Shown here in pieces: positions 41,905 through 59,718 of a DNA stretch of 64,000 nt (the stretch's first letter is position 1; each line of letters starts with the position of its first letter). The stretch spans positions 1 to 64,000 of the IMG/VR virus record IMGVR_UViG_3300042197_002946; one strand, written 5' to 3'. A program made the translations under genes and the position numbers. Source of the stretch: a virus. A model generated the notes under the pieces. That model was not told the origin of the DNA. It did not search any database and was given only the letters and a program-made list of their open reading frames with translations.

Positions 41905-44900
41905 ATGGCTAAAGCTTTTAATCTTACAGCAGAATTAAATCTTAGAGGCCCATCTAATCTCAAGCAGATAGCAGCGTCCATTCGTAGAGAGATCGGGACC
42001 GTAGACGCTACTGTTAATGTTAAGATAGACAGAGCGGCCGAAAGATCCATACTTAATAGTGCTAATGCTCTAAATAGATTAAATAGAGAACTTCAGACAA
42101 CAGCAACAGCCTCAGCCTCATCCACCAATAACATCAACAACCTTGTCGCATCATTAAATAGCCTAAGTAATGCTTTGACTGGATCTAATAATTCTATGCA
42201 GCGCATAGTTTCTACATCAGAGCAAACAGCCAGACAAATGTCTCGAATTAGAAAGACGACAGCAGTAGCGCGAGATGAGATGGAAGAGTTTGGTCGTCAA
42301 TCAGCTTTGGCTGTGCGACGTTTTGCTGCCTTTAATTTTGCTACCGGAGTTATTTATGGTTTTTATAATGCAATTTCCAAAGCTTTGGGAGAATTTACAG
42401 AGTTTGATAGACAGTTGGTGCGATTAACGCAAATTACTGGAGAATCTTATAGCGAGCTAAGCAGGATAACAGAAACAATTACTGGATTATCAACCGGCTT
42501 GGGTGTTGCATCAGGAGACCTTATCCGCATATCGGATACATTAGCTCAGGCTGGCTTGAGTGCCAGAGAAACAGACCAAGCATTGAGGGCTTTGGCTTTG
42601 ACGGCTCTAGCTCCGTCCTTCGATGACCTGAATAACACTGTCGAAGGATCTATTGCATTAATGAGACAGTTTAAAATCGGTACTGATGATTTAGCTGGCG
42701 CTCTAGGTTCTATTAACGCAGTAGCTGCTGGTTTTGCTGTTGAGGCCGGTGATATTATTACAGCTATTCAGCGTACTGGTGGTGTGTTTGCCGCAGCTAG
42801 TAAAGGGGTTAGCGAAGGCACCGATGCGTTAAATGAATTTATTGCGGTATTTACTAGTGTAAGAGCCACAACTCGTGAAAGCGCAGAAACAATTGCTACA
42901 GGCTTGAGAACTATTTTTACTCGTATTCAACGAGAAGATACTATTGAGGCATTAAAAGAATATGGAGTTAATCTATTGGATGTAGAAGGTAAATTCGTTG
43001 GAGCTTATCGAGCTGTACAATTACTAAGCGAAGGTCTTGGCAAACTAGATCCTAGAGACGTAAGCTTTTCTAGAATAGTAGAAGAGCTTGGTGGATTTAG
43101 ACAGATTGGTAAGGTGCTTCCGTTGATTCAAGAATTCAGCACAGCACAACAAGCTTTAACAGTAGCTCAAAGAGGGCAAAATTCATTAGCGGCAGATGCA
43201 GCCAAAGCTCAGTCAGCATTAACAGTACAGTTTACCAAGACTAGAGAGTCATTTGTTGCTTTAATTCGAGATATTGGCAGTAGCGATAGCTTTAAAACAC
43301 TTATTAGTTTAGGCTTGACACTAGCTAATACATTCATCAAAGTAGCTGATTTCGCCAAGCCTCTACTTCCCATCCTAACAACCATCGCAGCATTACAAGG
43401 AGCTAAATCGTTAACGAGTTTTGTTGGTGGTTTCGTAGGGGGATTGCGTAAAGTACGTCCGGGAGAAGACGGAGGGGGCGGTGGAGGACCAGCTAATAGG
43501 GCTAGAACTGAAAGATCAGCCGCAGACATTACAGATAACTCTAGATATTTAGACGCCAACACCACAGCTTTGATGGGTCTGGGTACAGCTATGGGGGGTC
43601 TAACAGCAGTTATTAGTCCATTACAAGCTTCTATAGATAATTTGGGTAATGCAGCTATAGCTCAATTAAATAATGAGATTGTTGCTCTGAACAACACTAT
43701 GAGCAGTATTGATCTAGGCGGAGCCGCAACAGCTAAAGATGGTGGCAGAATATTACGTTTTGCTAGAGGAGGAGCTGTTCCTGGTAGCGGACGAGGAGAC
43801 AAAGTTCCGGCCATGCTGGAACCCGGTGAAGTTGTTATGAGCAATCGGGCTGTTAGTAAGTATGGAAGAGGTAATTTGGTAAGGATGAATAAGTATGCAA
43901 AAGGAGGAAAACCAAAAAGAGGAGTTCCTAATCAAGTTAATACTACGGATGTGGTTGATGGAGATACAATTGGTGCAGACATTTTCACCAATCTAACATT
44001 TAGATTTAGCGGAATTGACGCTCCAGAAAAATCTGAACCGCTTGGTGACAAAGCGACATCGGTATTGACTAACAAGAAGTTGAGCTACTTTAATAACAAA
44101 ATCACAAGTGGCGTCGGAGGTAAATCCAGGGGCTTATTTAAAGACGATGCATTAGCTGGCCAAATGATTCGTAGTGGTTTGGCAGTTCCAGATATAAGAT
44201 ATGCTAAGAACAAATTTAGTAGTGATGTTGAAGCAGGTAGAGCAGCAGGACAGGGCTTATGGAATAGTTCGTATGCTAATCATCCTAAAAGATTACAGTT
44301 TAAAGAGCAATACGGATATAGTTTTGGGGGTCAAATTCAAAAATTTATGAGCGGATCAGCCGGAGGAGTTAAGTCTAAACCCGAACCATTCGGTACAGGA
44401 GTCACCAAATTTCCTCGTCGTATAAGTAATGCCTACGCTAAACAGACGGAAAAGGAAAAGACAGATAGACATTTTGATAGACTCATACAAAACAGTCCTA
44501 TTAATGAAAGAATCATGGTTGATGAGGCTATGGAACAGCAGATATCCCAAGGGATGCAGCAGCCATTAGATCGTGAAAAATTTGCAGCGTCTTTTAGACG
44601 AGCTGTTTTAAGAGACGAAATAGCATCCAACATATCTAATTTTGCTAAATTGGTTGGACTTCCACAAGAAGATTTGTCTGTAGTATTACCAAGACAACTA
44701 GATTTTGGCTCTGGTTCTGGTCCTATAGGATCTCGTGGAGGTAGAGATGTTTTAGGTGGGGCTTTTACAACCATTAGTCCTTATGGTAGTCGTGGAGCAG
44801 AAGGCTGGGATCTTAGTGAGTTTGGTTATACTAAGCAGGACGAACAAGACCTATTCGGCTTAGAAAAACTGTTAGAAGAAAAGAAAAAAGAACGTGATAA

Positions 44901-59718: not shown

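Follow-up and report, generated by a model that had tools for sequence, protein, structure and literature searches.

A linker-bounded bay of swappable enzyme-like modules in a giant phage tape measure protein, probably a carrier of several effectors

The first 64 kb of the 150,336-base virus record IMGVR_UViG_3300042197_002946 (referred to below as the window) encode a giant tape measure protein (TMP) of 5937 amino acids (aa; positions 41905..59718, with an ATG start codon and no internal stop; all TMP features described below lie on the plus strand). We found that a bay (aa ~660-2510) is inserted between its core and its rod, and that this bay contains six enzyme-like domains, in the following order from core to rod: (i) a staphylococcal-nuclease-like domain (SNase), (ii) a zincin, (iii) an ADP-ribosyltransferase (ART), (iv) a P-loop domain, (v) an HxGH nucleotidyltransferase (NTase) and (vi) a HAD domain, followed by a seventh module, DFP. 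The modules are separated by linkers and have been exchanged between related phages. It is probable that the protein combines the functions of tail ruler and effector carrier, with a length-neutral, swappable multi-effector bay that would be delivered together with the DNA.

Identification of the tape measure protein and its relatives

The N-terminus of the protein matches PF10145 (E=3.6e-22, over the Pfam cut-off) as well as several tape-measure PHROGs. The core comprises aa 1-510 (41905..43434), with PF10145 at aa 191-384, and shares 58-62% identity with four relatives (alignment A1). A scan of IMG/VR viral contigs with the TMP core revealed 211 relatives, 80 of which were fetched and studied. 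Every relative carries the same TMP core, and in most of them a bay is located between two VPAML..GE motifs. In 38 other contigs a single open frame of 3,051-6,561 aa, without interruption, encodes the matching TMP. An earlier note on this DNA had recognized the open reading frame (ORF) as a TMP gene and had placed the six enzyme-like domains, in the order given above, between the core and the C-terminal part; both observations hold. The seventh module (aa 2422-2496) and the linker system had been missed.

Linkers and conserved motifs of the bay

The usual order in the TMPs of the relatives is core, VPAMLxPGEFV (M1), bay, M2 and a rod with further copies of the motif (M3). The VPAMLxPGE motif occurs in three flavours at fixed places (M1, M2, M3), and its copies in the window are found at aa ~635, ~2519, ~2572, ~4112 and ~5743. 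VPAMLxPGE-like motifs are also present in a few cyanophage proteins and in other TMP PHROGs. The first boundary of the window bay (43741..43896) consists of linker motifs (aa 613, 618 and 663) and M1, SGRGDKVPAMLEPGEVVMSNRAV (aa 628-650). The second (49411..49680) consists of a linker (aa 2503) and M2, VPALVSNGEAYVPPKLAKKIGYGKLNRMN (aa ~2518), plus a variant of the motif at aa ~2572. The rod and C-terminal part (aa ~2600-5937; 49700..59718), whose length is kept in the closest relatives, contains two M3 motifs (aa ~4111 and ~5742).

Scanning for linkers identified GGQIQKFMSGSAGG (aa ~808-821; 44326..44367), QYFDGGWVE (aa 1246-1254; 45640..45666) and GGIVQKFMDGGV (aa 1584-1595; 46654..46689) within the bay. 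The window linkers delimit the SNase, the zincin, the ART, and one large cassette composed of P-loop, NTase, HAD and DFP. The consensus of the linkers between modules, GGxIQKFAxGG, was observed 245 times in the bays, against 7.8 occurrences expected in shuffled bays. Linker density amounts to 5.8 per 1000 aa between domains, compared with 0.5 within them and zero in the core. A looser form of the linker was detected at 64 of the 81 junctions between modules, against 34 of the 366 control stretches within domains; this junction test is partly circular, as the seeds were cut at linkers, whereas the shuffle test is not.

Enzyme-like modules

Module 1 (SNase; aa 666-808; 43900..44328) was assigned by PF00565. 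The window sequence itself matches this profile below the cut-off (E=0.0025), whereas the SNase module of the relative L026, 34% identical to that of the window, exceeds it (8.8e-7). The window also contains the residues that we take to correspond to D21, R35, D40, E43 and R87 of SNase. In the structure model covering SNase and zincin, the SNase part was left unmodelled because of too few relatives, while AlphaFold2 pLDDT was mostly >85 across the zincin-like region. The latter, module 2 (aa 828-1245; 44386..45639), carries the invariant HExxH (alignment A3) as HELTH at aa 1080-1084; HE[LM]TH was found in all 10 relatives, and EDxGKEEF is also conserved.

Module 3 (ART-like; aa 1318-1532; 45856..46500) was identified with PF03496 and by a profile search of PDB. 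PF03496 matches 9 of the 10 members of this ART family at E<=0.1 (best 1.4e-10; window 0.0077, below the cut-off), and ADP-ribosyltransferases were the top matches of the family profile in PDB. The S-x-S and E-x-E motifs, both present in the window, are invariant in the alignment of these 10 sequences; the usual arginine is absent.

The P-loop domain (module 4a; aa 1598-1794; 46696..47286) has the Walker A sequence GVAGAGKT, the lysine column of which is invariant. It precedes the HxGH-type NTase (module 4b; aa 1803-1984; 47311..47856), in which both the (H/T)xGH and ISxTxxR motifs of HxGH nucleotidyltransferases (TAGH and ISGTMVR in the window) and their fold were found; the AlphaFold model of the NTase yielded Foldseek matches to PPAT and NMNAT with a probability of 1.00 and E-values down to 5.6e-5. 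The HAD-type phosphatase-like module 5 (aa 2111-2421; 48235..49167; DFDET) was assigned by PHROGs, motifs and Foldseek. All motifs of the HAD superfamily, DxDx(T/V), [ST], K and DD, and the fold were found, DxDxT and DD being invariant in 22 sequences of the module, and its model matched HAD enzymes in Foldseek with probabilities of 0.96-0.99. The AlphaFold model covering NTase and HAD has a mean pLDDT of 82.

Module 6 (DFP; aa 2422-2496; 49168..49392) is a near-universal small module, present in 64 TMPs, which follows HAD, NTase or other cassettes (alignment A6). It is PD-(D/E)xK-like by motif only. Its designation as a nuclease was given up in favour of this motif-based label, because the lysine is not conserved. 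In the DFP of single-module relatives, a T replaces this lysine, and such variants may have a non-nuclease role. DFP produced no Pfam match, and neither HAD nor DFP found a match in PDB sequence-profile searches.

Among the relatives of the bay modules, catalytic motifs are retained at 20-50% identity. As regards the folds that the earlier note had proposed, profile and structure searches bear out the NTase and HAD (AlphaFold and Foldseek) and the ART and SNase (Pfam), while the zincin and P-loop assignments follow from the motifs only.

The combination of P-loop and NTase also raised the question of a NadR-like NAD salvage enzyme. The domain order is not that of NadR: the P-loop precedes the NTase, whereas in NadR the NMNAT comes first and is followed by the kinase. 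Moreover, no match to the NAPRTase family was detected in the record containing the window or in those of ten relatives. A role of P-loop-NTase in NAD rescue is possible, but is favoured neither by domain order nor by other genes.

Exchange and selection of modules

Comparison of core identity with cargo similarity over all pairs gave a correlation of only r=0.15. The closest cores to that of the window, namely those of L006 and L008 (87%) and of L007 (83%), are accompanied by cargo unlike that of the window. Two pairs of relatives are particularly informative. L035 and L037 are 99.5% identical over 8 kb that comprise upstream DNA and the core. Within their bays the first module differs, a stretch of 96% agreement follows, the last module before M2 differs again (zincinB versus GNAT), and agreement is then restored; the breakpoints are located at linkers or M2. 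The cores of L024 and L028 have diverged (dS, i.e. synonymous divergence, of 1.2), yet these two TMPs have in common a HAD-DFP-zincin-GNAT block, 93.6% identical over 3,273 nt (dS 0.17-0.28). A survey of mosaicism in phage proteins could confirm no recent case in TMPs (PMC10684548). Judging from the sequence comparisons, the two pairs described here are such cases.

The ratio of nonsynonymous to synonymous substitution (dN/dS) in recently exchanged modules was 0.04-0.15, which indicates purifying selection and argues that the modules are retained for what they do.

Length of the bay and of the rod

Bay length ranged from 181 to 2,273 aa in the 48 TMPs measured to their ends. In several close pairs the part following the bay keeps its length while the bay does not: in the window, L006 and L007 the bays measure 1844, 1081 and 1268 aa and the post-bay parts 3421, 3356 and 3358 aa, respectively, and in L017 and L023 bays of 1172 and 1762 aa are followed by 3576 and 3571 aa. 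Among the pairs with >80% core identity (31 pairs, which are not independent), the median relative difference was 0.20 for bays versus 0.03 for post-bay parts. Since bay lengths vary while post-bay lengths are often kept, the bay is apparently not counted in the ruler, which suggests that it is left out of the determination of tail length.

Diversity and distribution of bay modules

Using profiles built from the modules, we distinguished 26 module orders in 59 complete bays (some of these loci are contigs nearly identical to one another, and in seven bays no module was recognized). The module pool beyond the window comprises a second zincin-like module, a GNAT-like module (named by eye, without Pfam support), two further ART-like modules and candidate nucleases. 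The ART-like module of L004 matches PF18760, the ART of polyvalent proteins, at 1.2e-4, which is below the Pfam cut-off; PF18760 was not found in the window. In the second half of the L004 TMP (P0003), the HExxH-like sequences AHELRHYL and AHEAAHHY were noticed beyond the bay, which suggests that the rod region of some TMPs in the family contains additional peptidase modules. The cores of L042 and L043 are identical, and the TMP frame of 4293 aa in L042 ends at 2932 aa in L043, as a split gene, a broken gene or a sequence error.

Relatives among viral contigs were found by queries with individual domains; a query with the whole block retrieved none, as single-sequence patterns missed them. Queries with the zincin or with P-loop-NTase gave, after clear duplicates of loci already known had been set aside, 28 loci for examination. 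Each of these is part of a long, TMP-type open frame (1,449 aa or more) and none is free-standing; most carry linkers and VPAML motifs. The core was also matched by two short contigs from genome bins of bacteria, which provide little host information.

At the thresholds used, the 50,697 GenBank phage records contained no close match to the TMP family. The nearest GenBank phage TMPs are of the SPbeta type, with a core identity to the window TMP of only ~25%. When GenBank phages were searched with the bay block, only matches to the VPAML motif and to a weakly similar cyanophage cytidyltransferase were obtained, and the GNAT, ARTB, HAD-DFP-zincin and ART modules of the relatives found no match among these phages.

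Genomic setting

Terminase, portal-like and J-like tail genes are located upstream of the TMP gene on the same strand and form with it a late structural gene cluster. Downstream, an ORF of 1422+ aa (59735-64000, running past the end of the window) is rich in GNNN/SGNN repeats resembling those of YadA-like heads, and probably encodes a trimeric tail fibre. In view of the TMP, the upstream structural genes and the downstream tail-fibre-like protein, the phage is most likely a siphophage. The plus-strand structural cluster is headed by a weakly matching sigma-factor-like protein and a D5-regulator-like protein (13250-14736), and a nucleotide-sugar epimerase gene (15287-16282; a strong match to phrog_540, 2.1e-78) immediately precedes the terminase gene.

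Proposed function and alternative explanations

The observations described above can be accommodated in the following model. The conserved N-terminal core and the long rod would fix tail length, and the bay between them would present a variable row of enzyme cassettes on flexible GGxIQKFAxGG linkers. The tail would be assembled around the TMP, which would leave it at infection, so that the cassettes would enter the cytoplasm together with the DNA, refold and act ahead of any phage gene expression. Putative targets are nucleic acids for the SNase, host proteins for the ART and zincin, and nucleotides or the ends of RNA for P-loop-NTase and HAD; NAD metabolism would be a further natural candidate alongside nucleic acids, nucleotide metabolism and host proteins. 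Recombination at linkers would move cassettes between phages and thereby uncouple the cargo from phage ancestry, and the cargo may instead track host defences. The earlier note had suggested a delivery vehicle for several effectors, and this is the best-supported reading. It has gained much strength from the comparison of relatives, which revealed a dedicated bay, bounded by linkers, with swappable modules that are under purifying selection, where the note had a single sequence to go on. Ejection, refolding, activity and targets are nevertheless inferred, injection from the biology of TMPs only.

Several points weigh against this interpretation. The tail lumen is thought to be too narrow for folded domains. 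The earlier note had credited each domain with most or all of its key residues, but the ART does not have all of them: the position of the YRG arginine of strand 1 at the NAD site, which we located by what we take to be the R-S-E motif of the family, is occupied by S, A or T in 10 of 10 sequences. The DFP lysine of D...(D/E)xK is present in the window but lost in several relatives. Thus, some bay modules, such as an ART without the NAD-site residue and DFP variants without lysine, may lack enzymatic activity. No structural counterpart was found for the folds of the zincin and DFP, the zincin-like module having given no convincing match in Pfam, PDB sequence-profile or Foldseek searches. Finally, some close pairs do differ in the length of the post-bay part (e.g. 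3447 and 2732 aa in L037 and L055).

Proteolytic excision of the bay during assembly, after which its domains would act in the producing cell or be packaged in the head instead of passing through the tail, seems unlikely to us. The linkers do resemble exposed joints, and zincin processing has been proposed for polyvalent proteins (PMC5512222). However, linkers are general whereas only 17 TMPs of the first set contain the zincin, which argues against a general processor, and the search for a C39-type double-glycine peptidase gave no match in this record, which may be incomplete. The zincin as a general linker protease was ruled out, because most TMPs lack it. It is distinctly improbable that the bay domains have no enzymatic function and are present as structural spacers or as passengers in decay, as could be proposed from the atypical ART and from the loss of the DFP lysine, since HExxH, DxDxT...DD and the Walker A lysine are invariant across divergent relatives and recently exchanged modules have low dN/dS values.

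We give slightly less credence still to a role of the bay confined to entry, i.e. penetration of the wall or envelope. TMPs commonly carry peptidases and lytic enzymes, and a zincin could work in the envelope, but NTase, P-loop, HAD and ART need nucleotides or NAD, which are cytoplasmic, and Pfam searches found no peptidoglycan hydrolase family in the bay. The unusual size and mixed content of ORF 41905-59718 might point to an assembly artefact or a chimera of several genes, a possibility mentioned in the earlier note. It is refuted by the single frames of up to 6,561 aa in the 38 other contigs, and with an even composition along the whole ORF and the same architecture in relatives its probability is negligible.

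Relation to known systems

Delivery of a multi-effector bay by a TMP would unite features of several known systems. Toxins of the MuF type are borne C-terminally by a head protein, whereas the window TMP is a tail protein with an internal row of several modules. MuF polymorphic toxins (PMC5576092) resemble it in placing diverse effector domains on a phage virion protein. Polyvalent proteins (Iyer et al. 2017, PMC5512222) likewise combine many unrelated enzyme domains (ART, zincin, GNAT and nucleases) in one polypeptide predicted to be co-injected with DNA. The window TMP has the feature that defines them, as it joins at least two enzymatic domains of unrelated kinds in a single protein encoded by a mobile element. 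However, phage versions of polyvalent proteins are likely packaged in the capsid, and the word 'tape' is never used in their description (PMC5512222), whereas the modules reported here are built into a TMP, where they occupy a fixed bay and share a linker.

The giant 5,002-aa TMP of P23-45 (PMC10770324) contains within its N-terminal part an enzyme acting in the cytoplasm, a virion RNA polymerase; unlike in the window TMP, this is a single enzyme of another kind, with no swappable bay or linker system described. The contractile injection system effectors Sle1 and Tme (PMC13277306) are TMP-related, are loaded and ejected, and have variable functional domains, but they belong to contractile bacterial particles, not phages, and have one C-terminal functional domain in place of a multi-enzyme bay. 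TMPs with lytic domains (e.g. SPbeta YomI, with a weak core similarity of about 25%) also contain an enzyme domain, but this is directed at the envelope, in contrast to the putative nucleotide- or protein-modifying cargo of the window bay.

According to the earlier note, no TMP with this set of domains had been described. We found no published description of an internal, linker-bounded, swappable multi-enzyme bay in a TMP, with preprints and subscription papers being outside the search; the claim is nevertheless qualified by the precedents (PMC10770324, PMC5512222 and PMC13277306). By analogy, the domain logic would be that of polyvalent proteins and the carrier a TMP as in P23-45, the novelty lying in their combination in a linker-bounded swappable bay.

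The chances seem to us evenly balanced that the TMPs of this family are a general multi-effector chassis, with a length-neutral bay, a standard linker and up to ~seven swappable cassettes, co-injected at the start of infection as a pre-early package for attack or counter-defence. If the proposed delivery is true, the phage tail, besides the capsid, would carry several effectors at once. The bay would then represent a natural design for the passage of enzymes through the tail of a phage, in which the sites of exchange are already marked, and its modules a pool of candidate early effectors, which may be individually assayed against host defences.
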